Shown here piece after piece: positions 175 through 35,346 of a stretch of 64,000 nucleotides of DNA. The position numbers were made by a program, and so were the translations under genes. The stretch comes from Blepharisma japonicum (lineage: Eukaryota > Ciliophora > Heterotrichea > Heterotrichida > Blepharismidae), in the NCBI GenBank assembly GCA_949751835.1, contig CATKHK010000021.1, positions 434,001 to 498,000 of the forward strand. Direction: 5' to 3'. The notes under the pieces were generated by a model. It was not told the origin of the DNA and made no database searches. It worked only from the letters and a program-made list of their open reading frames with translations. Positions within the stretch are counted from its first letter, which is position 1. Every line of letters begins with the position of its first letter.

Positions 175-771
175 TTAAACGTCTTTAGATAATATAAGAT
201 CAGTATACGTTTTCCTTATTAGTTTCTTGAGGTCAGTGATTGCTTCATTATTTTCAGATGTCAGAACTAAATAGGCTTTTGTAATCGGAGAATACTCTTC
301 AGGACCTTTTTTTAAATCACTTTCAATTGTGAGCCTTATTCTTTTCATTGCTTTTCTTCTTTGTATACTCGCTTCATCTTCTCTTTTGGATCGAGTTACA
401 AAGAAATTATAATTTTCTTGCTTATTTGCCTCTTTGTTTTTAAACTCTAATTCATGTTTCGCTGCTTCTTCTTCCTATATAACAGTTACATCTAAGTAGT
501 AAGAAAGTGTGCTATCAATTAAGAATATTTTAGGGTACCAACCTAAGACATAATTCACAATGCCAGACGCTGGCTTTGCAAATTTTTCTCCCTTGGCAGT
601 CAAGAGCACATCTCTTTTCAGATTTACGAAGTCAACAAGAGATTTGAAAGTAGCAGGCCCATTAGCTTTTATGAAATTAACGAGACATCCCACAGCTGAA
701 AGTTTATATTTTTCATCTAGAACCCTTGCTTTATCAGTAATGTCTACTGAACTTTGAGGAATTTTGTCCAT
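175..771 (-). CDS. Small conserved cassette protein, copy 1 (193 aa, one 15-nt intron)
   Basis: Two exons, 771-490 and 474-175, are joined by a 15-nt intron at 475-489 (GTAACTGTTATATAG). The start is chosen because residues from MDKIPQSS onward align with the other two copies; the upstream in-frame extension is not conserved. The first ~95 residues look like a compact helical domain (DEKYKLSAVGCLVNFIK, LLTAKGEKF, IVNYVL). The second exon is highly charged and helical, with the conserved motif EYSPITKAYLVLTS near the C-terminus. There is no signal peptide or membrane segment, so it is probably cytosolic or nuclear. It is the first of three paralogs in the array, and all have the same exon lengths (94 and 100 codons). 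I do not recognise the family; a winged-helix-like fold for exon 1 is only a guess. Confidence 0.72.
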
Positions 772-2219
772 ATTAAATATAATCAACAGCATTAAATAAC
801 CAGCTAAAATGGACATATCTGAAGGCTCAGGTATAGATGCTCATAAAATTATTTTAGATGCAAATAAAATTTGAAGCTCAAAAATATCAAAAACCTATTA
901 TTTTAAAATTATCATGTGAATATTTCAAAGATAATATATATGAATAAATTTTTCTCCACCACATAATGATAATGCATACTTAAAATAAATTGATGTATGT
1001 ATAGATAAAAATAAAGTGATTTATAATCGATTTATATTATATCGTTGAGTGTGCAAAATAAAAGAAATAAATTATTTAATAATTTTAAGAAAGACTCAGC
1101 TTAATTTGATGCTAAAATTTGCCTATTTCTATTTAAATTGTTTTCTAATTTACAGCTTGAATTTAATTTCATTTTTTTAGTTTATTTTAGCTCTCACCAC
1201 TACCTATCTATAATTATAGTAAAATTGAAGTAAAATGGAAAATCGAATTTTTATCATTTCAAATTTTAGGATAGGAGGGAAAATGGAAAGAAAAGCAAAA
1301 AATATCTAATTTGTAAGCTCAAAAAATAGATAATAAATAGCATAAAAATAAAGATTTAAATTTAAGTATTTTTTTAGTTTAATGAACATAAAAATTCATT
1401 ATTAAGCTTCTATTGACTTTATTTCTGTTGATTATTGGCAATTGCTCCAATTCAGAAACTTAATCTGGCATTAACCTTGTCTTTCATCAATTTTCTAAAA
1501 TGAAATTTTTGACATGTGTCAAAATATTATTTAGTCTAAGATTTGAGTGAATTGATAAACTACTTACCCGTCCATATATGGAGATGCCTAATTTCTAAAT
1601 TTTTTCAAATCTGATTATGTGTTAAATTATTCAAATAATCCAAGAAGTGACAAATTAAGATTTCGAAGAGGCTTTATGCTAGAAATAAATAATTTAATTT
1701 TATTTCTGTCAAGGTCTAACCCTAAAGCTGCAGTCATCCTTAAATCAATTCTTCTTCTTCTTCTTCTTCTTCTTTATCTTTAGAAGCTTAAAACTCAATT
1801 GGAGATATCCCAATTCCAGTTCGCTTTATACAAACCATTCTCCATAGATTTTCTTTGATAATAAAAATGGAATTGCTCTTGAGTTAATCGACGCCTACAA
1901 GTTATTTAGAAAATTATTTATTGCTGCTGTTCAAGTATTAGTTATTTAGAAATTGCTGATATTCTGTTCAGCTTTCCTAGGTCAAAATATAATCAATCTT
2001 TGTCTTTTATTTATTACTTTTAAAATACTTATTTAATAAACGAAGTCTAGATATATCAGAGAAAAAGATTATAGGTAGATAGGCAGCAGCATTAGCCAAT
2101 ATCTAATAGATTGATATATATAACTAAACAATAATGGCTTTGACTTAAATTTATTCAGAATTAAAAAAATATTTTAACTTTAAAGTACAGGCAATGAATA
2201 ATTAAGTCAATATAATTTA
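772..2219. other. AT-rich intergenic stretch of unit 1
   Basis: No coding signal is seen. In units 2 and 3 the matching interval carries the 3' part of the pepsin-fold gene; here no trace of that part is recognisable. The only clear structure is a CTT microsatellite near 1751-1775. Confidence 0.5.
1751..1775. repeat. CTT microsatellite (8 units)
   Basis: Perfect CTT repeat in otherwise AT-rich non-coding sequence. Confidence 0.9.
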
Positions 2220-2540
2220 TCTCCTATAGACTGCAAAGCATTTGATAGTCCTAATGTGCTTAATGTCAAACTTAAGGCTGATGCAAATTTTTTTATTTTC
2301 CGCCCTATTTTATGCAACTGATATTATCAACCCAAGCCCTATAAGAAATTTAACGGAATTAAAGGTTAAACGTTTGCGAGGGTGTTATAGCTCGCAGTTT
2401 CAGCATAAATATTGATTCTAGATAGTAATAAGGCTACTAGGATTTTTTGTTTGGTGAAAAAAAATTATTTTGAGAGATAGAAGACTATCAAATTGTGCTT
2501 AGAGGTATTCTCTTCTCTAAAGATAAATTGAAAAGGGAGT
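2220..2540 (-). pseudogene. Decayed 5' relic of the pepsin-fold pseudo-protease gene (unit 1)
   Basis: This stretch aligns base by base with the 5' part of the pepsin-fold genes of units 2 and 3. Shared blocks on the plus strand include a CTCCTA..GACT segment, a block like TCCTAATGT.TTAATGT, and the sequence around the first intron (ATATTGATTCTA). It sits where the gene should be, divergent from the giant gene that starts at 2799. Many substitutions and indels destroy the frame, and the rest of the gene cannot be found. Unit 1 has therefore lost this component. The right boundary is approximate. Confidence 0.7.
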
Positions 2541-2798
2541 GGAACAAATGAAAGAAAATTTTGCAAATATATAAGTTTTATAGCTAAAAAAATATAGAAT
2601 GAATAGAATTTAATTAATAATGGAAGTGAAGATTATCAATTTATAATTCATCTCTCTTCCAAGGCTAGCCTTCTAAAGCTTCTCTAGATATAAGTTAAGA
2701 TAAATAAATCTAATTAAACTTGATAGAGTAAAGAAAATCTTATTCCTGCATTTTCTTAAGGATTTCTTTACCATAATTTGGTGTGTTTATAAAAAATA

Positions 2799-5700
2799 AT
2801 GAAAGCTTTAGTAATTTTTCTACTGGCGATTGGCTTAACGATTTGTAAAGATTTTGCTACAAAGAGCGGTTCTTTAGATCCTGGAAGAATTACTTGGCCG
2901 AAGGAAGAATGATATAACAACCCAATCGACCTATCCCAAACTAATGCAGGGACACCTGTCACCTTAACATTCAATTTTAGACCAACGACTCTAATAGAAA
3001 ATGGCATTGTTCAAATAATTTTCCCGTCAACCTTTCCTAGTATTATAAGCCCAGTCAATGCTAATCTAGGTACTTCAAAAATTTCAGCTGGTGTTGATAT
3101 GTCAGTCACTACAACTGCAACTTTACCGTCTAACCCAGGCTTTGTAGGGCCATTCGGGATAATAACAAGGTCGAGCCAAACAGGTCAAATTATTGATGCC
3201 AATTATGTATTTGGTTGCATAGCAATATCAGACTCAGATATCCCAAGTAGCCTCTTGTCAATCTATTCAGTATCAAAATCTACCAAAATTGGGAGCTCAG
3301 ACAGCTTTGTTTTTAATTTTCCAATCAGCAAAAGTTTTTGGAAAAACGACATCATTGAAGTTATCCCTCCTAAAGACTGGTCTCCATCTAGCAACCCTTT
3401 GTGCTCATCCAAAAATGGTATTTTAATAGGCCCCAAGTTATCAACTTCTCTTCCTTGTGCAGTTGCAGCAAAAAGTACGAGCTATACCGGAGCTACAACA
3501 ACTCCATCTTCAGATAATTTCAAAAATAGTGTATACATCTATGGAGTGTCTCAAGATATTTATACATCTACAAAAACTGATATATCGTTTGCAATTTCTG
3601 AGTTCAATCTGCCCCCATATGTAGTATCTGGAACTTCAAGTCTAAATTCATGGGAAGTAAAAGTATGAAGATTTGGTACTAATAATATTATATGACACTT
3701 TACTGGCTCAGCCATTTTTACTATGACTCCTGGAACTCCCCAATTTATCTCCTGGCTTCCTCGAAGCAAAATTACAAGCTCAGATGTCAGAAAAGGCATG
3801 ACAATCTTCACAGACCTGACTATAGCTACAGAAAATACAATTCCGCCATCTGGGACTTTATCAGTCACATTTTCTGGTCTTCAGGTTTATGAGCCTACTT
3901 GGTGAAAAGAACTTGATGGCTCAAATGCTGTTAATGGGCTCTGCTATTTATCCCCTTACATAAATGGAACATCATGCTCTGTTGACACAACCCAAAAAGT
4001 GACTATAAAATTTGATAACTACCAGACCACAAAGACATTTACTATAACAGTTCTTACAAATTTTAACTCAGACAGTCCTTCAATCTCAAAAATTGAGTCG
4101 AAAACAGAATCATTGGCTCTTATTGACTCTCTTATACCTACTAATAAGTGGGTATTGAATACTACCAATATATTACTTAATGACTGCTTTTTCCATGGGT
4201 ATAATGATTGGAATTATCCTGGGACAACTAAGCTTAAAGCTAACCAAATCCAAGGTGGGGTTGTAGGGAAAAAACTTTATTTTAGGGCCAGACCTGGAGA
4301 CACTGCATGGGGAGGAAGCGTCAGTGTAACTCTTATATTTAATATAAATTACAGTGATAAAATTTCATTCACAAAGGTATATATCGACCCCAAAGCTACA
4401 GTATCTGAAAAAATTGACGCATTGACATCAACCACCACATCTTTATCTGAAGGGGCTAATATTTATACTCCTTCTTTTGGAACTCAATCCCCTGGAATTT
4501 ATGTGACTATTCCTGCAAACTCTGCAAAACAAGTAGCCACTACTAATTATTATATATTTGCTTATAGTTCAGCGTCTTCAACGAGTCTTCCATTTGTAGC
4601 TTCAAATGTAGCCACATTCTATGAGATGTGGGCAAAGGTCGAATATGCGAATAAGTCCAAGTTTGAAATTAGTAGCACTGTATTTTCAGTTATGCCACAG
4701 ACGACTACTTCAAAGCTTTATTCAGTTCCTTTATGCACTGATGCAGTATTTGGGATTCCTATAGTAAATTATTTCGAGCCTATTTCTATGAGTTTTGACT
4801 TTGGCGACCCAAGCTACAATTTCGCTATTGATATTGACATAGAGAATGGATATGATTTAACTAATGGTTTTTTGAATACTAATATTACTACAGGAGAGCT
4901 AAAGCCCAGGAATTTCGCAACAAATGCTCAAGGGAGTGCAAGAGCGTTTATCAGCAGTTATAAATTGGTAGACAGTAATGGGACGACTAAAATTCATGCA
5001 GTTGTAACTTTGATTTCCCTTGGAAAAACAACATATAGCTCGACTGGGAGCACTAAAATCACAACATTTATTCCACAGAATATTGCTAAAAGCAGTAGCT
5101 TTAACGTAAAAACGATTTTCTATTATACAGTATCAGAAGATCCTAAGACTAAAATGGAGCTCTATGAGAGTTCAACCACTTGGACCATGACTAATCCATC
5201 CAACACGATTACAGCTGCCTCTTCAAGTGGAATTTTTAATATTGGGGAGCCTGGAACCCTAACTAACACTTTAACAATTTCAAGCGGCTCTATAACTAGC
5301 AGCGACATAATTGGAGTAGGGATGACCAAAGGAGGCTCACAGCAGTTACCAGTCATGAGCCTCATTATTAATGGAAAAACCTATTCATCATCAAGTCCAT
5401 ATACTGCAGACTCATATAATGATAATGCATTAGGAGGTTTTGTGATGACTTATGATTTTACCGGATATACTGGGACCACTATTAGTACTTCTACATCTTT
5501 CAGCGTGAAAATAACCAACGCATATCCTCCAAACCAAGTAGACAAAACGTCAGGAAACGTAGATACCAGCTATAGTATTTGGATAGCAGATGGGTCTCAG
5601 GACTGAGGAAAGAGCTGTAAAGCTTCAAAAGTTATTAAAAGCTCAGATGGGTCTTCGACTGTTGTTATAAATGCAGGGAAAATTACTTCTCCAACTTGCA

Positions 5701-8700
5701 GTATGACAGTTTCGTCTGGCTCAGGGTTGGCTGATGCAGCATTAGAAATAAGTTTTACAATATCCCATGACATTCCTGCAAAAGGTCTCATTGAAGTTAC
5801 TTTAGGTACCAACTTTGGATGGGCTGATACTGATGGAATTTCTACATGCTTGTCTACAACTTTGGTACCTTCTGATGAAAATGCAATATCCTGTAAGGTT
5901 TCTTCGTCAGGATCCTTGATTTTGACAGGCTTTAACCCTGTGTCTGCTGGGACTGCTATAAATATTTCAGTAAAGCATGTGCTCCCTACTTCTTCTTCTT
6001 CTTCATCTACATCTATAGCCTGCTTTACTTTAGTGACAACACAAGCATCAGCAGGAAAATATATTGACTCATGGTCAGGAAGCATTCCTGTTATTATTGA
6101 TGGGGGAAGCTCAATAGGAAAGCCAACTTATATAGCATTTGAGGTATATCCTAATAATCCAGGGGTACAAGCTGATCTGTATTTGTCTTTTAGTGTATCC
6201 AAAGCAATTCCACAAAAAGGAAAAATCATAATATCTCAAACCTTTGCCTCCTGGAAATATTCAATAGGCACTATTCAAGACTTCTGTTGGACTAATATTG
6301 ACTATTTAGCCTGCAAAATTGAAAATTTCAATATAGTCATCACATTAGCACATGATTTGGCTGCTGAAAAAATTGTTGAAGTATATATAGACAGCGCCTT
6401 TGTGCTTCCAAAAATCACTGGAAAAACTTCAACTGGTATTAAAATACAAGGAACTTGGGCAGGGACAACTCTAGTAAGTGATTCCTCTACAGGGGTATTG
6501 CTTGAGGTTGGCCCAAAAATAGACGCTCTAGTCAAAATTAACAGCATTTCTATTGCAGATATAACAAATGTCGGGGAAAATGCGAATTATAAATTTTCAT
6601 TTACAAGTGCTGAGGTTAAAAATGGTGATTATTTTGTAATACAATTTCCTCGAATAGATGCTGGCTATGGATTTGATCCTTATATAGGGGATGCCACCAA
6701 TCCGTTTTCAGTCCTTATGCCAAATTCATTTGAGCTCCCATGCAGCTCATCTTCTCTGGGAAGTATTTCTTGCCACCCTAGCCATTGGTATCTAACTGTC
6801 AAGGATATCAGTTCTTTTATAACTGCAGGGACACAAATTGACATAAGCATATTAAATGTCAGAAACCCTTACATGAGTTCAGATTGGAAATTTAATATAT
6901 TTCATTATGACAGCACTAATCTTTTAAAAGCATTCGGATTCTCAAGCCAATATACAAAAACCATAGATCCAAGCACAACTAAAGTATCTTTTAAATCAAT
7001 ATCTTCGAGTAAAGATGCACAATCAGCACTAGCAACCTATATTTTTGAATTTTATCCAACTAGCTCTTCAGACAGTTTTACATCAGATACTGTATTTTAT
7101 ATCAATTTCCCCAATCAATTTGACTTTAATTTGTGAAAATCAAATTCAATAGCTTGCAGCTCATTTATTTGCAATAGCGTATTTAATGCAACTAACTGTG
7201 ATAAGACATGGAATACTAATCAATTATGCTCTATTAGCGGATCGAAAGTATTTCTAAATATCCAGTCTCAAAACGCTGTGAGGATGACTGATGTGTCAAG
7301 AGTAGTTATAAGTATTCCAAATATTAAAAATCCAAGCACTGGACTGCAGAGAAAACAGAGCTCTGGATGGGATACAGCTGATACCAGTACTTTTGGGAGT
7401 TATAATTTTTGGAGTAGTCATTTTGAGGCTGGAGCTTGAAATAAAAATAAATTGACTGTAAGTAGAAGCTATGGATTATTAAATAGCTGCTATGAAGGAT
7501 ATACTCAAGGCTCATCCTCTATAGGGGTTGAATATTCAGAATCAGTAAACAGAATTGCCTTAATCCCAGGTCAGCAAAGTAAGGATATCTCAATAAAAAC
7601 TTCTAATGGCTGGCCATCAGTTGATAAGTCTATAAAATTTATTCCAACAATAAGTGGCACTGGGTCAAGCTACTTGAAAATTTCTTCTCCATTCCATAAA
7701 TTGGTGCTAAAGCAGATGCATTCAGAAGCTATATTCAGAGTGGCTGCACTGCAAGGGATTCCTAATGGAATTTATTATCTAGACTGGACTTTAAGTGAAA
7801 GCACTCAGATCCCTGATGTAACTATGTATAATGCCCCTTCAAGCACATTAATCGAAGTCCACACAAAGCCAGATAAATTGCTGCCCATAAATGTTGCTAA
7901 AATTCCTAAGCTATATGTAGGATATAGTAGCGTCCCAATCTGCCTCGCATTAGACTATTCCCCAGCATCTAGCTTAATAATTACTCCAACTTTTGATTCA
8001 GGCTCCTCAGGAATAGCTTCTCATCCTACTTCACTTAAGTTTGCCCCTAATATAAATTCCATATGTTTTACAATCGATATTTCATCAAATTACTACTCAT
8101 CTGGAGGCTCAACATCTCTTTCCTTCGAACTTTCAGGAGCTGATTCAAATATTTTTAAAAAACCAGATAGCATTACACTCACAATAAGCCAGCTTTCTGC
8201 ATCTATTACTCAGCCAAATTTACAATTATCAAGCACAGTAAAAGATGGAAGCACTGCATCAATATCAGTGGTTTCAGATTATGATGCAATAATTTACTGG
8301 TCTGTTTCTTGCAAAGGGGCAGATATTCTAAGCTTTAAAGATATAGTTTATCATGCTCCAGTCCTCACAGATGCAAACTCAACAACATTAAAAGATATGC
8401 TTGCTGATGAATATGAAAATAAAGAAACTGATACTAACTCATAATTAACATTAACTCTAGTAAAGGGGATACTGATATTTTTTCATTTTTTAATAGGCAG
8501 CACGCTGAGCATTGTATAAGTGACTATATTTCTTCACAAGTAGTGTATGCTGGATCTCCAAGCACTATAACTCTTGACTTTCTTATGGGCGGAACTGATT
8601 ATACTTTTACAATATATGCTGATCATAAGCTTATAAAAGATACTTCCAATTATCAGCCAAAACTACTTAATTTTACGACATCAGCCCTTCAGCCTATAAT

Positions 8701-9448
8701 GTCGATATCCCTGACCTGTTCTTCAAGTAGTGACTTAAGCTATTTATCCTCCAAAATTCAAAGTATAATAGCAAAATATATGGGAATTAACCCCTCTTGG
8801 CTTGATTATATCGACCCGAACTCAGCTCCTCATAGAAGACTTTTAGTATCTACGGTATTCAGCTATAATGTATTATATGACAGAAATTTCCCAAATTATT
8901 CTTCTTCAAAAATTCTTGAAAATTTCAATAAAAATCAAGCAGCTGCTATGGTAGAGATCAAGCAGGCTTTATACTTACAGCTGTCTCCTACATATACAGT
9001 AAATGCTGTGACTGGAAATACAGGCCCTGCATGAGATTCTCTTCCTCATAAATTTTCTTTGTCAGAAGATGGAATTGCAGAGTTCAATGCTACTGCTGTA
9101 ATAAATGGAAGAATATATATGTCGTGTGTAAAGCCTTACACTAACGAACATCCTTATGCTTGGCAAGTAAGAGATGGGCTAGATGCTAGAAATAATATGG
9201 GGGAGGTCAGCTCTGTTGCTGTTAAAGCACATGTGTCTGGAGCATTAAGTATGTCAGGACTAAAAAAGAAAGAAAAATATCGCTGCTATTTTACTGTATG
9301 CAATAACTACACAATGTTGCCAACCTGCTTGGAGTATAGCGGAGATTCACAATTGAACTCAATGTTTAAGGCTGATATTGATATGAGTGAGGCTGATGAA
9401 AGCAATTGGATCCTGGTTGGATTTTCTATAGCTCTAATATTCAATTAA
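2799..9448 (+). CDS. Giant GPI-anchored-type surface protein, copy 1 (frame broken once by a 17-bp insertion)
   Basis: The frame begins MKALVIFLLAIGLTICKDF, a signal peptide aligned with the starts of copies 2 and 3. It runs with TGA as Trp to 8441, where a 17-bp insertion between TAACTC repeats brings in TAA and shifts the frame. It then continues to 9448. Without the 17 bp the product is 2,210 aa. It is Ser/Thr/Asn-rich with few cysteines. At least seven beta-rich modules share a pattern like IP-x2-G-x-I-x-I-x-FP (for example IPAKGLIEVTLGTNFGW). A C-terminal helical segment is followed by HRRLL near residue 2005, and the protein ends in a short hydrophobic tail (WILVGFSIALIFN) like a GPI-attachment signal. 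It is probably secreted and cell-surface bound. Family not recognised. The break may be a real mutation or a germline-type insertion. Confidence 0.8.
8441..8457. other. 17-bp insertion flanked by TAACTC direct repeats
   Basis: TAACTC at 8435-8440 recurs at 8452-8457. Deleting one repeat plus the spacer restores the frame and gives KETDTNSSKGDTDIFSFF, the same length as the equivalent segment in copies 2 and 3. It lacks GT...AG ends, so it is not an intron. Confidence 0.85.
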
Positions 9449-10295: not shown

Positions 10296-10892
10296 TTAAA
10301 GATTTTTAGACTCTATTAGTTCTAAATAATTATTTCTGACTAACTGCTTGAGTTCAGCAACCGCTTCATTATTGCCAGATGTCAGAACTAAATAGGCTTT
10401 CGTTATTGGTGAATATTCTTGAGGGGTTTTCCGCAAGTCACTTTCAATTGTAAGCCTTATTCTTTGCATAGCTTTTTTCTTTAGTTTTCTTGCTTCTGTT
10501 TTTCTTTTGGTGCGAGTCTTGAATAAATTTTCATTTTCTTGCCTATTTTCCTCTTTATTTTTATATTCTAATTCATGCTTTGCTGCTTCTTCTTCCTATA
10601 TGAAAGTTACGTTTAAGTAATAGGAAAAACAACTGTCAATTAAAAATATTTTTGGATGCGAACTCAATACATAATTGACAATGCTAGCCGCTGGCTTTGT
10701 GAATTTTTCTCCTTTGGCTGTCAATAGCACGTCTCTTTTGGAATTTACATATTCTACAAGAGATTCTAGAGTAGCATGATCATTAACTTTTAGAAAGTTA
10801 ATGAGGCACCCAACAGCTGTGAGCTTGTATTTTTCATCTATAGCTCTTTCTCTATCAGTAGCATCAACTGCTTGTTGTAGAATGCTGTCCAT
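10296..10892 (-). CDS. Small conserved cassette protein, copy 2 (193 aa, one 15-nt intron)
   Basis: Exons 10892-10611 and 10595-10296 flank a 15-nt intron (GTAACTTTCATATAG) at 10596-10610. The start is the ATG giving MDSILQQAVDATDRERAIDEKYKL. Domain layout is as in copy 1: a compact N-terminal domain of about 95 residues, then a Lys/Glu-rich helical second half with QEYSPITKAYLVLTSGNN. No signal peptide or membrane segment is seen. It is closer to copy 3 than to copy 1 in the N-terminal domain (both have LTAVGCLINFLKVNDH). It lies downstream of, and on the same strand as, the pepsin-fold gene of its unit. Function unknown; conservation of sequence, length and intron in three copies is the evidence that it is real. 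Confidence 0.78.
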
Positions 10893-12410: not shown

Positions 12411-12414
12411 AGGT

Positions 12415-13000: not shown

Positions 13001-13220
13001 TTAGTAATTCTCATTCTGCAAGCAAGAAACTCATCTATTGATAATTGACCGATCAAATAACCAAGCAATAAAGAATTTATAATAAAAATCAATCATAACC
13101 TAAAATCTATATTCTTTCTTAAAATCCCTAAAATGGAGGAACTCTTTGCTAATCTATAAAAAGTTTTGATAATTAATTTTATAAACACTTTATCTATAGA
13201 AAAAGATTTTCAAATTAGTT

Positions 13221-14795
13221 TTATATTTCCTTTATTGAAGGATAAATACTAGCATTTTTTTCATTGTCTTTATTCAATTGGCATTGAGGGGTGGATTCTC
13301 TTGTAAGAACATCGCTAATAGGTGTTTCTTCTAAATTAGCCTCGTGGCTGAGATCTTCCAGAATAATTGGAGAAAAAGCTGGATCATTTGGTATTATTTT
13401 CTTATTTATCTCCTTAGTGAATTGCTTTTTTGTTTCTATATTTTTAGTTTTACAATAAATATAAATTGCGCTTGGTATTGAAATAAAAGCAAATATTAAA
13501 GGAATAGTAATAATAATAAACAAGTTTGCTGAGGAGGAATTGCTATGGCTGAGCAAGGGATTTGAAATTGTATGATTAGCAGTCGTATTTGGCTGAGTAG
13601 TTGGCGGTGTTGGAGGAGGATTTGGAGGAGGATTAGGCGGAGGGTTTGGATTTGTCTGACTAATTTCGAGCTCAATAAACCCAATTTTCTTGTTATCCAT
13701 GTCAAAACTTGTATAAAATTTTCTAAGAAATGTATCCCCTAAAATTCAAGTGTCTTCTTTTGTAGAATGGCCAAATGAAGGATAGCAAGAATTGTTGAAT
13801 ACCCAAAAATATTCATTCTGCTTAATTTTAAAGTTATGCCCATCTAGCTGAAATGTTATTTCTGGGTATTCCTTATTGCAATCGCATTTAAAGTAGCCAT
13901 CATTGTCGATATCGCAGCTATAATCATGAAGGAAACTGCCCATCAGAATCCCGATGTCCTGGCTTGGACCTAGAATTTTACTCGTTCCTAAGCTTATTTC
14001 AGCTTTAGAGCTCTGGGTCATTTTTTTATTCCCAAAAGTGACATAATTACATTTTACTTCTCATTTTTGCCCTGAATTAACTAAATTTATGTATGTGAAC
14101 CCTGAGGAAACGACTGAATTTAGACGAGAATCATATCCGTCTATAGTAATGCTAGATTTTCCATAGTCTTTCACATTTGACGAAGCCTCATAATAGTTCA
14201 AATAAACCGCAAATTGTCTATTAACGATTTTTCCTGTAGCTTTTAAGCTTGAAATAAACGATTTACTATTATCCTCGTCAAAGCCTAGACCAAAAACTCC
14301 GTCAGTCATCAAGGAATCACTGTTTATCTCTTCATCTGCCAAAACAAATGACTGCTCTAAAGCTTCAATTTGGGATGGTCCAATCGCTATTTTTTCTGTG
14401 CACACTTTCCCTGATATTTCTCCTACCGACTCCAAATCTTTTGTAAGCCCTGATGTATTGAATGTTGAGCTTAGGCTAGAGCTAAACTTTTTAACACTTT
14501 GCCGGCATTTAGAACAATTTATATTGTCAACTCATATTCATGGAGAAACTGATGAAATTAAGAGAGTAAACAATTGTCCAGGCGTTCCTATGGAAGCTTG
14601 GATGTAATATTGATTCTAAATAGTTCTTACATCTCCAAGATTTGTTATGTTTGTTTGTGATAAAATTCTTTTTGAATAAAAAATATCATCGGGCGAGTAC
14701 TTAAGGAATTTCCTTTCTATTTTACCAAAGTACTCAAAATGTATAGGAAATGTTGCAAAAGACAGAAAAATTGGCAAAAAGATGTACCTTGGCAT
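13221..14795 (-). CDS. Membrane-anchored pepsin-fold pseudo-protease, copy 1 of 2 (519 aa, one 15-nt intron)
   Basis: Exons 14795-14631 and 14615-13221 are joined by a 15-nt intron (GTAAGAACTATTTAG). The start is set by the signal peptide MPRYIFLPIFLSFATFPI, which aligns with the unit 3 copy. The body is a family A1 aspartic peptidase fold: YYIQASIGTPGQLFTLL, the paired-Cys loop NCSKC, GVFGLGFDE, AEISLGTSKILGP and WILGDTFLRKFY. Both catalytic motifs are dead: the first DTGS is SSVS and the second DTGTS is SLGTS, so each Asp is Ser. A Pro/Asn stalk (NPPPNPPP repeats) leads to one transmembrane helix (IIITIPLIFAFISIPSAIYIY) and a cytosolic tail of about 75 residues. It is a type I membrane protein, probably a binding or receptor protein. 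It is divergent from the giant gene that starts at 15020. Confidence 0.88.
14616..14630 (-). other. 15-nt intron
   Basis: GTAAGAACTATTTAG, phase 0. Its position is conserved in the unit 3 copy at 27325-27339. Retention would add an in-frame TAG. Confidence 0.85.
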
Positions 14796-15019
14796 TAATA
14801 AAAAATATAGAAGAATTCCCTTTTGAATCAAGGTCGATGATATCCTATTGTTTCTATATTTTTTTTTGAAAGCTGTAGAGCTAACAAAGACTTAATTGAA
14901 TATCTATAGTAAAGTTAAACTGAAAATAAGCTTATAAACTAAATTATATGTCAAAATTCTTAAAATTTTACTATCATTTTAATGATTTCTTTATCAAAAA
15001 TATTGATGCTAATAATATA
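14796..15019. promoter_or_regulatory. Divergent promoter region, unit 2
   Basis: 224 bp separate the start codons of the pepsin-fold gene (minus) and the giant gene (plus). The unit 3 equivalent is 229 bp. Both contain AAAGCTGTA and a TTATAAA element. The conserved close spacing suggests co-expression from a shared promoter; that is inference, not seen directly. Confidence 0.45.
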
Positions 15020-21000: not shown

Positions 21001-21637
21001 TACATCATCTGCTAATAGAAGGCTTCAAGCATCTACAGCTTTCAACTACTATGTCTTATATGATCCTAGTTTTCCACAATATCCATCTTCCACAATTATT
21101 GAGAACTTTAGTAAAAGCCAAGCTAGTGCCATGTCAGAGCTCAAACAAACCCTGTCATTGGCTTCATCTCCTTCATATACAGTTACTACTGTGACTTCAA
21201 ATGCCAATCCAACTTGGGACTCGCCTCCATATAAAAAGAAGAGTTCAAAAGATGGAGAAGCAAAGTGAAATTTAACTGCTTCAATAGATGGAAAAGTCTA
21301 TGTATCATGCGTCCAAAATAATACAGATGAAAACCCACGTGCTTGGCAAGTGGTGGATGGGCTAGACGCAAGAAATAATAAAGGAAAAGTCAATTCAACT
21401 GTTGTAGCAGCACATGCAACTACAATACTGCTTATATCAGGGCTTGATAAAAATATTAAGTATAAATGCTATTTAACTGCGTGCAATAACTATGCATTTT
21501 CGCCTACCTGCATGGAGTATATTGAAGGAGAATCTGCATTATTATCAATGTATAGAGAGATAATTGAGTCGAATGAAAGTGATGGAAGTGAATGGATTTT
21601 GCTTGGAGTTACTGCCCTAATAGCACTATTTAACTAA
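15020..21637 (+). CDS. Giant GPI-anchored-type surface protein, copy 2 (2,205 aa, intact)
   Basis: One uninterrupted frame with TGA as Trp. The start at 15020 (MKTLKVLLLLVSFAACKDF) is preferred over an in-frame ATG at 14948 because the signal peptide and the upstream sequence align with the other copies. Repeated beta-rich modules carry related strands: DGIVQLIFPSTFPS, IIEIIPPKDWSPSS, IPASGTLAITISG, IPVGGLIEASLGSTFGWAD, IPAQGKIIISQ and TVFYVRFPEQF. FFSRQHAEHC is followed by a membrane-distal domain with NRRLQAST near residue 2000, a pattern seen in other protist surface proteins. The hydrophobic end WILLGVTALIALFN fits a GPI signal. It is the only undamaged copy here, so it is the reference for the family. 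Function unknown; probably a cell-coat or recognition protein. Confidence 0.88.
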
Positions 21638-21689
21638 AATTGGAATAGTTTAATCAAAATTTATTTATATTAAGATATGTAGCTCTGCT

Positions 21690-24454: not shown

Positions 24455-25051
24455 TTAAAAATTTTTAGACTCCATCAACTCAGTGTACGTTTTTCTGACT
24501 AACTGTCTGAGATCAGTAGCTGCTTCATTATTGCCAGATGTCAGAACTAAATAGGCTTTCGTTATTGGTGAATATTCTTGAGGGGTTTTCTTCAAGTCAC
24601 TTTCAATAGTAAGCTTTATTCTTTTCATTGCAATTCTCTTTTGTTTGCTTGCCTCTGCTTCTCTTTTGATACGAGTCTTGAATAAATTTTCATTTTCTCG
24701 CCTATTTTCCTCTTTATTTTTATATTCTAATTCATACCTTGCTGCTTCTTCTTCCTATATGAAAGTTACATTTAAGTAATAGAAGAAGCAATCGTCAATT
24801 AAAAATATTTTTGGATGCCAGCTCAATACATAATTGACAATGCCGGCTGCTGACTTGGTGAATTTTTCTCCTTTAGCTGTCAATAGAGCGTCTCTTTTGA
24901 AATTTACATATTCTACAAGAGATTCTAGAGTAACATGATCATTAACTTTTAGAAAGTTAATGAGGCACCCAACAGCTGTGAGTTTGTATTTTTCATCTAT
25001 AGCTCTTGCTCTATCATTAGCATCAGCTGCTTGTTGTGGAACGTTTTCCAT
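24455..25051 (-). CDS. Small conserved cassette protein, copy 3 (193 aa, one 15-nt intron)
   Basis: Exons 25051-24770 and 24754-24455 flank the intron at 24755-24769 (GTAACTTTCATATAG, identical to that of copy 2). It starts MENVPQQAADANDRARAIDEKYKL. The N-terminal domain is nearly that of copy 2 (LESLVEYVN, LLTAKGEKFTKSAAG). The charged second half includes EEEAARYELEYKNKEENRR and QEYSPITKAYLVLTSGNNE. No secretion or membrane signal is seen. It sits downstream of the unit 3 pepsin-fold gene on the same strand, as in unit 2. Function unknown. The conserved linkage suggests it works with, or is co-regulated with, the two surface genes, but that is inference. Confidence 0.78.
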
Positions 25052-25941: not shown

Positions 25942-27507
25942 TTAAATATCCTTTTTTGAAGGATAAAAGTCGGCTTTTTTTTCATTATCTTCATTCAATT
26001 GAGATGTGGGCTCTCTTGTAAGAGTATCGCTACCAATTTTTTTTTCTAAATTAGCATTTTCATTGAATTCCTCTAAAAAAACTGGCAAAAAACCTGGATT
26101 ATTTGGTTCTATTTGCTTTTGTATCTCCATAGCTAATTGCTTTTTTGCTTCTATTTTTTTGGTCTTGCAATAAATGTAAATTGCACTTGGTATTGCTATA
26201 AAAGCAAATATTAAAGGAATAGTAATAATAATAGACAAGTTTATAGAAGAAGAATTGGTATGGTTGAGTAAGGGATTTGATAATATTTGATTATCAGTTG
26301 AATTTGGCTGGGGAGTTGTGGGCGTTGAGGGATTTGGAGGGGTTGTAGGAGAATTAGGACTGGCTTGATTAATTTCGAGCTTAGCAAGCCCAATTTTCTT
26401 GTTATCAATATCAAAATTTGTATAAAATATCCTAAGAAAGGTATCCCCTAAAATTCAAGTGTCGCCTTTTGGAGAATAGCCAAATGAAGGATAGCAAGAA
26501 TTGTTGAATGTTTGGAAATATTCACTCTGCTTTACCGTAAAATTAGATCCATCTAGCTGAAAAATTATTTCTGGGTATTCCTTATCGCAATTACATTTAA
26601 AGAAGCCGCTATTGTCACTACCGCAGTGATAATCAAGAAAGAAACTGCTCATTATTGTTGAGATATCATTGATTGGGCCTAGAATCCAACTAGCTCCTAA
26701 GCTTATTGTAGCTTTAGAGCTCTGGGTTAATATTTTATTCCCAAAAGATACATAATTACATTTTACTTCCCATTTTTTCTCTGAAGTGTCTACATTTATA
26801 TATGAAAAGCCTTGGGAAACCACTGAGCTAAGACAAGAATCATATCCGTCTATAACAATGCTGGATTTCCCATAGTTTATCATATCTGAAGAAGTTTCAT
26901 AATAGTTTAAATAAACCGCGAATTGCCTGTTTGCAATTTTTCCTGCATCTTTTAAGTTCGAAATGAACGATTTACTATTATCTTCATCAAAGCCTAGTCC
27001 AAAGACTCCATCCGCCATCAAGGAATCACTGTTTTCTTCTTCGTCTGCCAAAACAAATGACTGCTCCAAAACTTCAATTTGGGATGATCCAATCCCTATT
27101 TTTTCAGTACAAACTTTTCCTGATATTTCTCCTACCGACTCCAAATCTTTTGAAGATCCTAATGTCTTAAATGTTGAGCTTAAGTTTGAGTTAAACTTAT
27201 TTATGCTTTGCCGGCATTTCGAGCAGTTTATATTGTCTACTCATATCCATGAAGAAACTGACGAAATTAAGAGAGTAAATACCTGTCAAGGAGTTCCTAT
27301 AGCAGCTTCAATAAAATATTGATTCTAAATACTGCTTACATCTCCAAGATTTGTTATGTTTGCCAATGATAACATTCTTTTTGAATAAAAAAGCTTATCA
27401 AACTGATGTCTAAGGATTTTCTTTTCATTCGAGTTGAATTGCTCAAAATGAATATGAATAGAAGCAAAAGCAAAAGCAAGAAAAACTGGTAAAAAAATGA
27501 TCTTCAT
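25942..27507 (-). CDS. Membrane-anchored pepsin-fold pseudo-protease, copy 2 of 2 (516 aa, one 15-nt intron)
   Basis: Exons 27507-27340 and 27324-25942 are joined by a 15-nt intron at 27325-27339 (GTAAGCAGTATTTAG). The signal peptide is MKIIFLPVFLAFAFASIHI. Pepsin-family landmarks are kept: YFIEAAIGTPWQVFTLL (Trp from TGA), NCSKC, GVFGLGFDEDNSKSF and WILGDTFLRIFYTNFD. As in the unit 2 copy, the two catalytic motifs are SSVSS instead of DTGSS and ISLGAS instead of VDTGTS, so both aspartates are absent. A Pro/Thr/Asn stalk precedes one transmembrane helix (IIITIPLIFAFIAIPSAIYIY) and a charged cytosolic tail ending FYPSKKDI. The same two losses in two diverged but otherwise intact copies mean the inactive state is old and maintained. 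Likely a surface receptor or binding protein. Confidence 0.88.
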
Positions 27508-27736
27508 TGCTTAAAAAATTGCAGAAAGTATTGCTCGAAAAGTTTAACTTTAAAAATGGAAAACCTTCTACAAAATTTTTTGAGGCCATTTGAGCTATTT
27601 GAGGCTTTTGCAAAGCTGTAACTTATTTTTTCTATGAGGATATGATACGATTCTCAAATATTTGCATAAATCCTAAGTTTCTAGTAATGCTTTTAAAGAT
27701 TTATTTATAAAAAATTTTTCAGCTTATAAATAAAAA
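27508..27736. promoter_or_regulatory. Divergent promoter region, unit 3
   Basis: 229 bp separate the pepsin-fold start from the giant-gene start, nearly the same spacing as in unit 2. It contains AAAGCTGTA and CTTATAAATAAAAA immediately before the ATG. The promoter role is inferred from position. Confidence 0.45.
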
Positions 27737-30700
27737 ATGATAGCCTTAGCTATTTTACTTTGGACTATAGGCCTTGCAGCTTGCAAAGACTTTACGATTA
27801 AGAATGGCTACCTAGACCCTGGAAGAATTACATGGCCGAAGGAAGAATGATACAATAACCCGATCGACCTGTCTCAAACAAACTCAGGGACACCTGTAAC
27901 CCTTACATTTAACTTCAGGCCAGCGACTAGCCTACCTGGTGGAGTTGTTCAGATAATTTTTCCATCGACCTTTCCCAGCATTATAAGCCCTGTCAATGCA
28001 AATTTGGGTTCTTTAGCTATTTTAGCTGGGATTGACATGTCAGTCACTACCACTGCAACTTTACCATCAAACCCAGGATTTGTTGGGCCTTTTGGGATAA
28101 TTACGAGATCAAGCCAAACAGGCCAAATTGTTGATGCAAATTATGTTTTTGGCTGCATTGCTATATCAGACCCAGAAATCCCAGACAATCGTTTGTCTAT
28201 ATACTCAATGTTAGATAATAGAAAAATTGGAAGTTCAGGTAGTTTCATCTTTCACTTTCCAATCACCAAAAGTATTTGGAAAAATGACATCATTGAAATC
28301 ATCCCTCCTAAAGACTGGTCTCCATCAATAGCCATATATCCTACCTCCATCCTCTCAGTTTGCACTGATACCTTTATAGATCAATATAAGGAGCAATTCC
28401 AACACACTTTATGTTATCCTATCTAATTTAAATTTATTATGTTTTATCATAAATTATCTTTAAAATTAAAAATATTTCTATGGAAAAGTTGAAAGTCGCA
28501 TATTGTGCTTGGATGATTCAATTGATATTTACGAAACAAGATAATTCTGATTAAAATTATAAATGATATATCTATGCATACGAATAAAGATTGAGATAAT
28601 GATAAATAAGAGTTTAGGATCTGTGCTTGACCTTCCATCAACTAACCCTGCATGCTCGTCTACCGGCAGCGTTCTTACTGGTCCCAACGGATCATCATCT
28701 CTTCCTTGTGGAGTTGCTGCTAAAAGTAACAGTTACTCTGGAGTTGTAACAGAGTCGTCCTCTGACTCCTCCAAAAATTCTGTCTATATCTATGGGATAG
28801 CTAAAGATGTTTATATAAGCATCCAAACTGATATTTCCTTCACCATTTCTGAGTTTAACTTACCGTCATATGTTCTATCCACTACCTCGAGCAAGAACTT
28901 ATGGGAAGTTAAGCTTTGGAGGTTCGGCAGTAATAACCTTATATGACACTCAACAGGTTCTGCAGTTCTTTCTATGGTATCAGGGACTCCACGAATTCTT
29001 TCATGGCAGCCAAAAAGCTCAATCCCAAGCTCAGATGTTATGAGGGGTATGACGATCTTTACAGAATTGACAGTTGTGACAGAAACTACTATTCCAGCAT
29101 CTGGGACTTTGGCCATTTCATTTTCTGGTGTCCAAATTTATGAGCCTCGCTGGTGGAGCGAACTGGACGGCTCAAATTCTGCGAATGGACTTTGCTATTT
29201 ATTCCCTTACATTAATGGGACATCATGCTCGGTTGACACAACTCAAACAGTGACAATAAAATTTGATAACTACCAGACACCCAAGACATTTACTATAACA
29301 GTCCTTACATACTTCCTCACAGACAGTCCCCTTGCCACAAAAGTTGAGTCAAAAACTGAGGAATTGTACGTTATTGACTCCGCTTCATTCAGTATGTCCT
29401 TTGAATTAACAATTAACGATATACTACTCGGGGACTGCTTTTTTCATGGATATGATAGCTTTACCTATGAAGGTGCAAATAGCCTTTCCCCTGGACATAT
29501 CCAAGGCGGAGCTTTAGGGAAAAAACTTTATTTCAGGATCAAGCCTGGAGGAGAAACTACTTGGGGAGATACCGAAGGCGTCACTATAGTTTTCAATATA
29601 AATTTCACTACTACAAGCACATCGTTCACAAAGGTATATATCGACTCTAAAGCAACCACTTCAGAAAAAATTGATGCTTTAACCTCTCTCAATACAGTAT
29701 TAACTGAAGGTTATTCTATTTACTCACCATATTTTGGAACTCAGTCCAGTGGTATTTATGTTAGCATTCCTGCACACTCCTCCAAACAAGTGACTCCTAC
29801 CAGCTATTACTTACTCGCTTACAGCTCAACAGCTTCTACAAGTCTTCCTTTCGTAGCTTCAAACAAGGCTACATTCTACGAGATGTGGGCCAAGGTGGAA
29901 TATAAAAGTGGAACTTCCCGCGAGATCAGCAGCTCTGTATTTTCAGTAATGCCACAGACGACTACTAAAAATTTGTATTCAGTGCCTCTATGCACTGATG
30001 CAATTTTTGGTATCCCTATAGTAGTTTTTTACAAACCAGTTTCTATGAGTTTTGACTTCAGTGATACCTCCTACAATTTTGTCATTGATATAGACATCGA
30101 GAATGGTTATGAATCAAATGATGGCTTTTTGCATACTGGTATTATGGAAGGTGAATTGGACTCAAGCAAATTTGCATCGACTGCTTTAGGCGCAAGAGCC
30201 ATCATTTCTACTTACAAAATTGTAGGAAGCTCTGGAACGACAAAGATCCATGCAGTTATTTCTTTATTTTCGCTTGGAAAAGCAACTTATAATTCAAACG
30301 GTGAGAGTACAGAAATCACAACATATTTACCACAGCATTTTACAGAAGCCAGTACCTATAACGTAAAAACGGTTTTTTATTATACAGTTTCTCAAGACCC
30401 AAAGACTAAAATGGAGCTCTATGAGAGCTCAGCTACTTGGTCTATTACTGATCCAAGCAGCTCATTTACTGCTGCATCCATTAGTGCGGTTTTTAATATC
30501 GGGGATCCTTCAACTTTGACCAGCTCCTTAACTATTGCAAGCGGCGCTATAGCTAGCACTGATGTGCTAGGGGTAGGAATGACTAAAGGCAGTTCTCAGC
30601 AATCACCAATAATGAGCCTTATAATTGATGGTGCTACCTATTCATCATCAAATCCGTATTCTGCAAATTCAGTTAATGATAATGCAGATGGAGGTTTTGT

Positions 30701-33700
30701 CATGACTTATGGCTTTAGCGGCTACACTGGAACAACTATCAGCGATTCGACATCTTTTAGCCTAAAAATAACAAATGTGTATCCTCCTAATCAAGTGGAC
30801 AAAACTTCAGGAAATGTAGTAACCAATTATAGTATATGGATTGCAGATGGTACTAAACCTGGACAAAGCTGTAAAACTACACAAGCGATTAAAAGCTCAG
30901 ATGGATCTGTTATTATAAACACTGGAAAAATCACTTCTACAACCTGCAGCATGTCAGCGTCATCTGGATCAGGGCTTGTTGATGCGACATTAAATTTAAG
31001 CTTTATGATATCCCACGATATTCCTGCAGGTGGCTTAATTGAAGTCACCTTAGGCTCCAGCTTTGGATGGACTGACACTGATGGAATTTCTGCATGCTCA
31101 TCCGCAACTTTAACTCCTTCTGACGGAACTGCAATTTCTTGCAAGGTGTCTGCATCAGGAAGTATGCTTTTAACAAGCTTCAGCCCAGTTACTGCTGGAA
31201 CTACTATTAGTATCACAGTAAAGCACGTCCTTCCATCTTCCGATTCAAATTTAATTTGCTTTACACTTGTGACGACACAAGCATCTGCAGGAAAATATAT
31301 TGATTCGTGGTCAGGAAGTGTCCCTGTTGTGGCGGATGGTGGCGGGACCACAGTTGGAATCCCAACTTATTTAGCTGTGGAGATGTATCCCAATAATGCG
31401 GGAATGCTTGCTGATCTCTATTTGTCCTTCAGCTTGCCAAAAGCAATTCCTGCAAAAGGAAGAATCGTAATATCTCAGGCTATTGCATCGTCATGGAATT
31501 ATCCCTTAGGGACTATTCAAGACTACTGCTGGAGCAATATTGACTACTTAGCCTGCAAAATTGAAAATTTCAATGTAGCTATCACATTAGCGTATGATTT
31601 GGCTGCTAATTATATTGTTGAAATATATATAGATAGTGCTTTTGTACTGCCAAAAATTTCTGGTAAAACATCGACTGGCATTAAAATCCAAGGAAATTGG
31701 GCTGGAACAACCCTTATCAATGATTCTACTAAAGGAGCTTTACTAGACATCGGCCCAAAAATCACCTCACAAATCCAAATAAGCAGCATTACTATTAAAG
31801 ATATAACAAATGTGGGAGAAAGTGCAACTTATCAGTTTTTATTTTCTAGTGCCGATGTAGAAACTGATGATTACTTAGTAATCCAATTCCCTAGATCAAC
31901 TATAGGATCAGGGTTTGACCCTTATATAGGTGATGCCATCAATTCATTTTCAATTCTCATGCCAGAATTATTCGAACTCAAATGCACATCGGCTTCTCTA
32001 GGGGGCATTTCTTGCAACCCTAACCACTGATATTTGATTGTTAATAATATCATCTCTTCAGTAACAGCTGGGACAGCCATTGACGTGAACGTCTATAATG
32101 TCAGAAACCCATATATGGTCACTGATGGGAAATTTTCAATATGGCACTATAATTCCACTGGATATGCCAAAGCATTTGGAAGCTCAACACAATACACCCA
32201 AACTACGAACCCAAGCAAAACCAATGTCATATTTAAGTCAATAGATGTAGATGATCACACTCAATCAGCGCAGACTGATTACACCCTGGAATTTTACCCA
32301 ACAGACTCTTCAGAAGTATTTACTTCAGATACTGCATTCCATTTACTTATAATTTGCCTATAAATAAAGTTTATTGATAGCTTAGAGGATTATTTTGCAA
32401 TATTAGAATATTTTATATTAACTTCCCAGAGCAATTTAATTTCGACTATTGGAAATCAAATTCAATAGCGTGTACCTCGGCTCTTTGTAATAATCTTGCA
32501 AATTCTACGGACTGTGATAAGACATGGAATACTAACCAGCTATGTTCTGTTAGCGGATCTAAAGTATTTTTGGGCATTCCATCTCAAAATTCTGTACGAA
32601 TGACTGAAGCAACAAGAATAGTATTAACAATACCAAATATTTACAACCCAAGCAGCGGATTGACAAGATTAAAGCAATCTGGATGGGATACAATGGATAC
32701 CAAGGCTTTTGGAAGCTTTAGTTTTTGGTCTAGCAAATTCGAGGTCGGGATCTGAAATACAGCCAAATTTACACTAAACTTCCCTTTTAAGGTTCTGATA
32801 TTTTGTGCATTTTGAGGTTATGGGGTGCTGTAAATTGATGAACACCAGTAAAATCGTCCATAGTTCCGATAAGCTTGTTATTTTGCTGTTGATAGCAGAC
32901 GGTTTTGACGCTGGAATAGGTATTGGAAAAGATATAAGAGAAATGAGATGGAATTAGTGCAACGAAATATCACTCAAAGATCAGCTGAATGAAAGAAAAA
33001 GTGAAGATGCAGAGTTTCAATCAAGAAGAAGGAAAAAAAGCCTAAATATAAAGCGAAAAAGGATAAGAGGAGGAAAAAGATTTAGGGACCGAAGACAAAG
33101 CTAAAAGCAAATTGAAGATCAGACTTTAGACTAAGCTAATGATCTGGATGGAAATAAAATGAAAAGAATATGGAGAGAAGACGCTGTGAAGAACTACCAA
33201 CAGTAATTTGTAAGAGGAGGAAAAACTTTTAGAGAATGATCAGATGGTTGCATGGTCCAGAGGGACCGTTTTCTGGATATAGCCGCTAGATCAGATAATA
33301 TAAGATATTATTAGGTTACTAAACTCCTATAAATCATTATAACTTATATGTATCTAATCAGGAGTAAGCAAAAGCTATGGATTATTAAATAGCTGCTATA
33401 AAGGTTATACTCTAGAGTCATCTACTACAAGTATAGAATATCCAGAATCAGCAAACAGGATTGCCTTATCGCCAGGTGGACAAAGTCAGGACATTTCTAT
33501 CAAAATTTCAAACAGCTGGCCATCAGTTGACAAGTCCATTAAATTTGTTCCATCGATAAGTGGTACTGGATCAAGCTACCTCAAGCTGTCTTCATCATTT
33601 CATAACTGGGTGCTAAAGCAAATGCATTCAGAAATTACGTTTAGAATAGCTGTCCAACAAGGGATCCCTAATGGAATTTATTATATCGACTGGGCATTAA

Positions 33701-35346
33701 ATGAAACCCCTCAAGATTCTGATATTAATATGTATGATGCGCCATCAAGCACATTGATAGAAGTACATACAAATCCAGATAAGCTTCTACCAATAACTGT
33801 CGCTAAAATTCCTAAACTATATGTAGGATATAGCAGTGTCCCAATCTGTATAACGCTAGATTATTCTCCAGCCTCTAATTTGATAATAACTCCAACTTTT
33901 GATATAGATTCCTCAGGAATAACTGCTAATCCAGCATCACTGCAGTTTATTCCTGACGTAAATTCCTTGTGCTTTGAAATTATAATTAAATCAAGCTACT
34001 CCTCGTCTAACAGCACAACAGTTCTTTCATTTGAACTCTCTGGAACTGATTCCAATGTGTTCAAAAAGCCAAGTAGCATTAAACTTTCTATAGGCCAGCT
34101 TTCTAATACTCCTAACCAAGCCAGTTTACAAACTCAGAACACCATAAAAGATGGAAGTAGCGCGGCCATATCAGTGGTATCAGATTACGATGCTATTCTT
34201 TACTGGTCTATTTCTTGTAAAGGGTCAGATATTTTAGATTTTGAAACCCTAAAAGCAAATGCACAAGTGCTCATAGACCCAAGTTCTGAAACGCTATTTG
34301 ATCAGCTTTCTAAGGAATATGGCAGAAAGGAGACTGATGTTAGTGCTGGTGAAGGCGACAAGGACATTTATGATTTCTTCAATAGGCAGCATGCTGAGCA
34401 TTGCACAACATACTATTTCTCTTCCCAAGTAGTCTATGCCAAAACAGCAGCAAGCATAATGGTTGACTTCCTTATGGGTGGAACTGATTATATATTTACA
34501 GCTTACGCTGATCATAAGCTATTAGATTCATATTCGTCTTACCAGCCTAAGGTCATGAATTTTACCACATCAGCTCTTCAACCAATCATGTCACTTTCTT
34601 TAAACATACTTTCAAGTGGCGATTTAAGTGCATCATCCTCAAAAATACAGAGCACAATAGCAAAATATAGTGGGGTTAATCCATCCTGGCTTTATCTCAT
34701 TAACTCTAGCTCATCTCTTCAAAGAAGGCTTCAAGCAAATGCCACAACCTGGACTTTAAATTACTATGTGATTTACGATCGAAGTGTTCCGTTATACTCA
34801 TCTTCGAAAATCCTTGAATATTTCAATAAAAATCAAGCCAAAGCCATGTCAGAGCTCAAAGAGACTTTATTATTGAGCTCAACTCCTTCATATACAGTCA
34901 GTTCTTTGACTACAAGCACCAACCCCGGCTGGGATTCGTTACCTGAGTTACTTCCGCACTCAACTGGTGATAATTTAAGTTTCAATTTTACCTCTTCAAT
35001 AGATGGAAAAGTTTATTTAGCATGTGTGAAAAATTATACTAATGAAACGCCATATGCTTGGCAAGTAAGGGATGGACTAGATGCGAACAACAATTTAGGT
35101 CAAGCCAATTCTGTTAGTGTGACAGCACATGTGGGTCAAGAAATGAGTATATCAGGACTTATAAATGGAAATATGTTTTATTGTTATTTTACTGTATGCA
35201 ATAATTACCCAATGTGGCCGACATGTGTGGAGTATAATGGAGACTCTCAATTTTCATCGATGTATAGGATGAATATCGAAATAGAAGATGAAGAAAGGGG
35301 ACAGTGGATTTTGCTTGGGCTATCTATTCTCATCATATTTAATTAA
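27737..35346 (+). CDS. Giant GPI-anchored-type surface protein, copy 3 (interrupted by three insertions)
   Basis: It starts MIALAILLWTIGLAACKDF. The coding segments are 27737-28328, 28642-32338, 32413-32777 and 33368-35346. Each is open with TGA as Trp, and apart from the three insertions (313, 74 and 590 bp) no stop or frame change is seen. Total coding length without the insertions is 6,633 nt, giving 2,210 aa, exactly that of copy 1 without its 17 bp. Module strands match the other copies (IPASGTLAISFSG, IPAGGLIEVTLGSSFGW, IPAKGRIVISQ), with LQRRLQAN near the end and the hydrophobic tail WILLGLSILIIFN. As written the gene cannot make a full protein. It is either a very recent pseudogene or a gene whose insertions are removed at DNA level. 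Confidence 0.75.
28329..28641. mobile_element. 313-bp insertion flanked by TCCATCAA direct repeats
   Basis: TCCATCAA at 28321-28328 recurs at 28634-28641, giving an 8-bp perfect direct repeat. Removing the interval restores DWSPSTNPAC, which aligns with DWSPSSNPTC of copy 2. The insert is AT-rich and non-coding. I see no convincing terminal inverted repeats. An 8-bp target duplication is typical of hAT-type transposons, so a small non-autonomous element is one reading; an internal eliminated sequence is another. Confidence 0.75.
32339..32412. other. 74-bp insertion with ATT direct repeats
   Basis: The frame before 32339 and after 32412 joins to TSDTAFYINFPEQF, matching TSDTVFYVRFPEQF of copy 2. 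The junction repeat is only ATT. The insert is very AT-rich with no ORF. The length is in the range of short ciliate internal eliminated sequences. Confidence 0.7.
32778..33367. mobile_element. 590-bp insertion with TAA direct repeats and a decayed coding-like stretch
   Basis: TAA at 32775-32777 recurs at 33365-33367, and removal restores AKFTLSKSYGLLN. About 32810-33210 has lower AT content and reads on the plus strand as a broken protein-like sequence (KIVHSSDKLVILLLIADGFD, then a basic Lys/Arg-rich part) with several breaks. I do not recognise it, and no terminal inverted repeats are clear. It could be a degraded mobile element or a TA-bounded germline insertion. Confidence 0.65.

Follow-up and report, generated by a model that had tools for sequence, protein, structure and literature searches.

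Organisation of the locus

The window analysed here, i.e., the whole stretch of 64,000 nucleotides from Blepharisma japonicum (C21:434001-498000), contains a tandem array of three units, which combine a small gene encoding 193 amino acids (aa), a pepsin-fold gene and a gene for a giant protein; the genome searched comprises 45.2 Mb in 224 contigs. A complete unit consists, from left to right, of the small gene and the pepsin-fold gene on the minus strand and the giant gene on the plus strand. In agreement with the original prediction, self-BLAST identified three collinear copies in the same orientation (71-80% identity, E down to 0), each with a 193-aa gene that contains one in-frame 15-nt GT-AG intron. 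The pepsin-fold gene, likewise as predicted, encodes 519 and 516 aa in units 2 and 3, where it is divergent from the giant gene with start-to-start gaps of 224 and 229 bp (about 225 bp had been proposed), and is decayed to a relic of approximately 200 bp in unit 1. A secreted protein of about 2,200 aa had been expected from every unit; this holds for unit 2, where 2,205 aa are encoded in one open gene, whereas the copies of units 1 and 3 are interrupted. Due to the ratios of nonsynonymous to synonymous substitutions (Ka/Ks) between copies, which amount to 0.15-0.44 for the small gene, 0.31 for the pepsin-fold gene and 0.22 and 0.29 for the giant gene, the unit copies look constrained. The features of the array are as follows.

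175-771, minus strand: unit 1 small gene, 193 aa, intron 475-489, profile score 262 bits; an alternative ATG at 816 would yield 208 aa with a hydrophobic start
2214-2424, minus strand: unit 1 pepsin-fold relic with stops and frameshifts (blastn, tblastx and tblastn against units 2 and 3)
2799-8444, plus strand: unit 1 giant gene, cut short by a premature stop after 1,881 aa, without the glycosylphosphatidylinositol (GPI)-type tail
8459-9448, plus strand: continuation of the unit 1 giant gene beyond a 17-bp insertion, in a different frame; Ka/Ks versus unit 2, 0.25
10296-10892, minus strand: unit 2 small gene, 193 aa, intron 10596-10610, predicted winged helix and long helix
13221-14795, minus strand: unit 2 pseudo-pepsin gene, 519 aa, intron 14616-14630, PF00026 match (E 4.1e-41), without both catalytic Asp
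14796-15019, no strand: unit 2 divergent spacer between pseudo-pepsin and giant genes, 224 bp, without the upstream boxes A and B described below
15020-21637, plus strand: unit 2 giant gene, 2,205 aa in one uninterrupted frame; no other copy in the window is intact
24455-25051, minus strand: unit 3 small gene, 193 aa, intron 24755-24769
25942-27507, minus strand: unit 3 pseudo-pepsin gene, 516 aa, intron 27325-27339
27508-27736, no strand: unit 3 divergent spacer, 229 bp, without boxes A and B
27737-35346, plus strand: unit 3 giant gene, four open pieces with three extra stretches between them
28343-28634, no strand: first of the extra stretches that interrupt the unit 3 giant gene, about 0.3 kb, ends approximate
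32338-32409, no strand: second of these extra stretches, about 0.07 kb, ends approximate
32772-33364, no strand: third of these extra stretches, about 0.59 kb, ends approximate, TA-containing repeat at its bounds, single copy in the genome

The long reading frames of the window are open only if TGA is read as Trp, and the introns read in the window are 15 nt long. Three consecutive CCCTAACA telomere repeats gave 168 overlapping matches in the genome and, among the matches listed, all are located at the ends of contigs or close to them. The published Blepharisma stoltei genome shares the genetic code, the intron length and the telomere (PMC9942806). Duplication of the spacers, which had also been predicted, is seen as a 77% BLAST match across the divergent spacer and further matches around the small genes, whereas five of six global spacer alignments lie at or near the shuffled range. 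The sole case clearly above it is the spacer from the giant gene end to the next small gene in units 1 and 2 (68.7% versus 59.7% shuffled), while the divergent spacers of units 2 and 3 reach 60.5% (shuffled mean 57.1%, maximum 60.9%). To the left of the window the array extends by three further giant genes (C21:402531-428865), which are situated on the opposite strand, head to head with those of the window.

In case of unit 1, the 17-bp insertion shifts the frame and terminates the giant protein at 1,881 aa, ahead of the GPI-type tail; since the remainder is still readable in the other frame and constrained relative to unit 2, a recent break fits. The three extra stretches of unit 3 could be internal eliminated sequences (IESs) or decay, judging from their sequence boundaries, of which one out of three is of a clear TA type. 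That they are germline segments left in the assembly, with the giant gene intact in most somatic copies, is quite possible, although we consider it somewhat short of an even chance: the intervening coding pieces are open and constrained (Ka/Ks 0.29 across all pieces), and a TA-containing repeat bounds the 0.59-kb stretch, which occurs once, but the best boundary of the 0.3-kb stretch is not of the TA type, that of the 0.07-kb stretch is so only imperfectly, and ordinary decay as in unit 1 would fit as well. An interpretation of the 0.59-kb stretch as a repeat was rejected due to its single occurrence in the genome. The same stretch (32772-33364) contains, by eye, a lysine/arginine-rich run that continues when TAA and TAG are translated as sense codons.

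The giant family, its small 5' neighbour and the upstream boxes

Searches with the N-terminal part of the giant protein returned 47 rows, which were merged by hand into 38 loci and 5 fragments, with intactness shown for part of them only; the full-length query gave 21 matches, i.e., all those scored among 91 candidates. Judged by sequence similarity, the window giant represents one branch within a family that comprises at least 38 loci, and in a tree of 12 giants the window trio (unit 3 represented by a 1,241-aa piece) forms a clade of its own, far from the other nine. All ten giants read possess a hydrophobic signal-type start, in one case behind a longer lead, and a hydrophobic GPI-type C-terminus, both assessed by hydrophobicity only. 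These features support the proposed GPI-type extracellular protein, and the giant is probably a cell-surface protein, with a probable role as variable coat or adhesion protein. Weak Pfam matches to Big_8 (immunoglobulin (Ig)-like) and fn3 were observed in 7 and 6 of the ten, respectively. An AlphaFold2 model of the C-terminal half consists mostly of beta strands; because its predicted local distance difference test score (pLDDT) is moderate (64.8), the Foldseek matches, which are beta-sandwich arrays with low template modelling scores, were used for the assignment as a beta-sandwich array only. Searches of PDB sequences with the giant and small profiles gave nothing convincing, and no relatives were found for a giant fragment profile in IMG/VR or for the small-gene profile in a set of bacterial and archaeal genomes. 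An earlier description of the giant family was not found in the literature searched, which covered titles and the beginnings of abstracts together with passages of PMC9942856, PMC9942806, PMC10946202, PMC10143506, PMC10892320, and PMC9788069.

For the small gene, 17 strong loci were obtained after merging of pieces, in addition to 10 weak rows. Fourteen of the 17 are located within 10 kb of a giant gene or giant fragment (11 of 14 if the three of the window are left aside), while such regions account for 1.5% of the genome. Except for C162:10918, where the small gene lies 8.2 kb away on the 3' side, all 14 linked small genes are situated on the 5' side of the giant gene, 11 of them at a distance of 0.9-2.7 kb. 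They are spread over 7 contigs, and counted by contig the linkage holds in 7 of 9 cases; the three unlinked small genes occur on C213 (one) and C8 (two), and on C8 a pepsin-fold gene is found approximately 1.2 kb from the nearer of the two. Viewed from the giants the association is weaker: for 12 of the 38, a strong small gene is present no more than 5 kb from the 5' end. Since full-length small proteins elsewhere are only 34-56% identical to those of the window, the linkage has outlived much divergence. A Mantel test of small versus giant divergence gave r=0.76 for 10 pairs (1 of 5000 permutations as high).

AlphaFold2 predicts for the small protein a winged helix followed by a long helix (97-153 of the model) and a helical end (pLDDT 86.5, predicted template modelling score 0.60); the model is based on 11 sequences and includes five residues of the unspliced intron (95-99), which supply the first three residues of the long helix. 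No Pfam family exceeded the cut-off in the family member shown in full. The suggestion that the small protein may be a cytosolic partner is supported by the lack of a hydrophobic start in the 193-aa form (by eye), by the predicted winged helix and by the location of most small genes near giants. No shared element was recognised upstream of the small genes, apart from weak short matches and the resemblance among tandem or otherwise close copies.

Upstream regions were read for 15 giants, 12 outside the window (3 of them chosen via the small gene) and the 3 inside. The upstream DNA of giants from six loci aligns in short blocks, and the first 80-120 residues of these giants differ by 38-57% (7-25% within the group of C37, C186, and C144). 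At about -150, eight of the 12 giants outside the window but none of the three inside carry box A (CATCTTTATWATTATARNNNT); box B (AAAGGTCCCATANNCGCANAAA) at about -100 is clear in 5 of these 8 and degenerate in C99, C77, and C162. In 45 Mb, box A has 18 exact matches and its backwards control none: 14 lie upstream of a giant gene and on the same strand as the gene, one terminates the short contig C213, which carries an unlinked small gene, and three are found elsewhere. With one mismatch allowed, one giant is added, resulting in 15 of 38, but the search becomes noisy (92 matches versus 35 for the control). The raw distance of box A to the aligned protein start is 152-157 bp in 10 of the 15 and 168, 179, 215, 216, and 216 bp in the others; as the frames of C186 and C144 start approximately 60 bp earlier, their spacing is the same despite the raw 216 bp. 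Box B, with up to two mismatches, has 10 matches (control 1), nine upstream of box A giants and one upstream of a giant fragment on C37. Nine giants have both box A and a linked small gene, 6 the box only, 3 the small gene only and 20 neither (Fisher P=0.0036); box A thus occurs in 9 of 9 small-linked giants outside the window, and the three with a small gene only are the window's own. On sequence grounds the boxes are a candidate family promoter. A role of box A as a general promoter was rejected because of its few matches in the genome and the empty control.

The giant at C21:413888 lacks both boxes, whereas its close relatives C21:402531 and C21:422056 have both. The only exact box A matches away from a giant or small gene are C16:185166, C16:187642, and C129:46561; the two on C16 are 2.5 kb apart on the same strand and may mark another family.

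The pepsin-fold gene and the flanking region

The unit 2 protein matches PF00026 (E 4.1e-41) over profile positions 1-312 of 315. Compared with pepsin family A1 and its catalytically dead relatives, the window pair shares the fold and the whole-profile match, but LISSVS and ISLGTS/ISLGAS occupy the D-T/S-G sites, so that both catalytic Asp motifs are replaced; a signal peptide, a membrane span and a cytosolic tail were recognised by eye. The transmembrane pseudo-protease that had been predicted is supported. Members without the catalytic motifs are common: both motifs are retained in only 10 of the 30 loci examined, a set of 30 that includes the two of the window. Pfam scans of eight relatives revealed further cytosolic domains in four, namely IBR (C99), RING plus IBR (C78:22616), RING (C78:15356), and kelch (C78:29089), which suggests that the relatives are receptors. 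Such combinations of a pepsin fold lacking the catalytic motifs with IBR, RING or kelch tails are located at L020 355-2601 (C99), L030 1-2478, L031 25-2574, and L028 202-2493 (C78).

Only 3 of 81 pepsin matches lie within 10 kb of a giant (P=0.12, given that 1.5% of the genome is this close to one), two of them in the window, and therefore the giant/pepsin pairing appears local. Unlinked families had been named by the original prediction as an outcome speaking against it, and for the pepsin-fold gene this is what was found inside this genome. Rather than being a regular partner of the giant, the pseudo-pepsin was probably added at this locus.

To the right of the array, window positions 40674-61430 contain ordinary genes: 8 of 10 scanned open reading frames match Pfam, with cation efflux, myotubularin-like, IQ-motif, ABC transporter, SET-domain, RING, SHIPPO-repeat, and P-type ATPase classes.

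Origin and possible function of the unit

The trio is best seen as a derived branch of a family, in part of which the small and giant genes form an older unit. We regard it as moderately probable that the locus arose by local triplication within a large dispersed family of giant surface proteins, with the linked winged-helix gene as part of the older unit and the pseudo-pepsin added locally. The giant would be exported as a string of Ig- and fibronectin type III (Fn3)-like domains held by a GPI-type anchor, and the small gene would be an old 5' neighbour of a subset of giants. Its product, presumably an intracellular protein with a winged helix and a long helix, would most likely act on the expression or assembly of its giant. 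As the linkage pattern suggests, the pseudo-pepsin may have come from a separate, receptor-like family and moved between the small and the giant gene in the window branch. Box A, approximately 155 bp before the start, often together with box B at approximately 100 bp, may serve as promoter of the small-linked giants outside the window, while the window branch, which lacks both boxes in all three units, would use other DNA.

Several observations weigh against this reading. A strong small gene within 5 kb of the 5' end is lacking in 26 of the 38 giants, and the small-gene and giant matches cluster, so that the P values overstate independence. For the 7 non-tandem pairs the Mantel correlation decreases to r=0.36 (334 of 5040 permutations). 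Box A and the small gene are not strictly coupled, given the six box-only and three small-only giants, and no more than 9 of the 15 box A giants have box B as well. In case of the box-only giant C37:26653, no small-like gene is present in the 2.65 kb read upstream, and a weak match lies 3.7 kb off. The window's own giant had no Pfam match in the ten-member scan, and a full-length scan gave one unconvincing match (E 0.11). Regarding the small protein, the topology of the model is that of winged-helix domains such as cullin WHB and MarR-type domains, from which it differs by the additional long helix and helical C-terminus and by the lack of a PDB match at E<=0.001 (best E 0.054). Its net charge is only +4, and its best match is a cullin WHB domain, which is not known as a DNA-binding module.

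Physical clustering only, i.e., expanded families residing in the same recombining regions with the small gene as a passenger of unrelated role, is a serious but rather unlikely alternative. Duplications carry neighbours along, and both the many giants without a close small gene and the weak congruence of divergence outside the tandem copies would be expected from a passenger; on the other hand, neither the narrow placement of 11 of the 14 linked small genes on the 5' side, with the 14 distributed over 7 contigs, nor the persistence of the linkage despite divergence, nor the consistent presence of box A in small-linked giants outside the window is in agreement with it. Improbable is the pair originally proposed, in which giant and pseudo-pepsin are co-expressed as ligand and receptor or coat and anchor from one bidirectional promoter: the divergent arrangement is kept in units 2 and 3, the pseudo-pepsin looks constrained, its relatives resemble receptors and a further pseudo-pepsin lies 5.7 kb from a giant on C99, but for 35 of 38 giants no pepsin is located within 10 kb of the 5' end, 78 of 81 pepsins are located elsewhere, unit 1 keeps a relic only, and the similarity of the divergent spacers is at the edge of that of shuffled DNA.

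Returning to the triplication within a giant surface-protein family, the choice of a giant surface protein by ciliates is an old question, studied mainly in Paramecium. The giants resemble the Paramecium surface antigens (SAg, immobilization antigens) in being very large ciliate proteins with a GPI-type anchor signal encoded by a multigene family. The Paramecium antigens show a cysteine periodicity along the whole protein, as stated in PMC9788069, whereas the giants lack it, with 1.1-1.4 Cys per 100 aa and at most 6 per 75-aa window in ten members. Furthermore, the giants differ by weak Ig/Fn3-like domains, a winged-helix gene beside some of them and a family-specific upstream element. Mutually exclusive expression of the multigene family is described for Paramecium (PMC10143506); for the giants, a family of at least 38 loci was observed. 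Because the cysteine periodicity is lacking, the giants were not filed as Paramecium-type surface antigens despite the likeness in outline.

It is tempting to speculate, though we give this little chance, that the giants are switched via a dedicated upstream element, many with their own winged-helix gene acting on it, and that dead-pepsin receptors, some with ubiquitin-ligase-like tails, read the surface. Dead pepsin ectodomains on RING or IBR tails would represent an unusual receptor design. Box A splits the giant family in two and might mark the expressed set. A family of this kind in a heterotrich, combining a compact upstream element of its own with a linked putative regulator, would offer testable sites and genes for the question of surface-protein choice.

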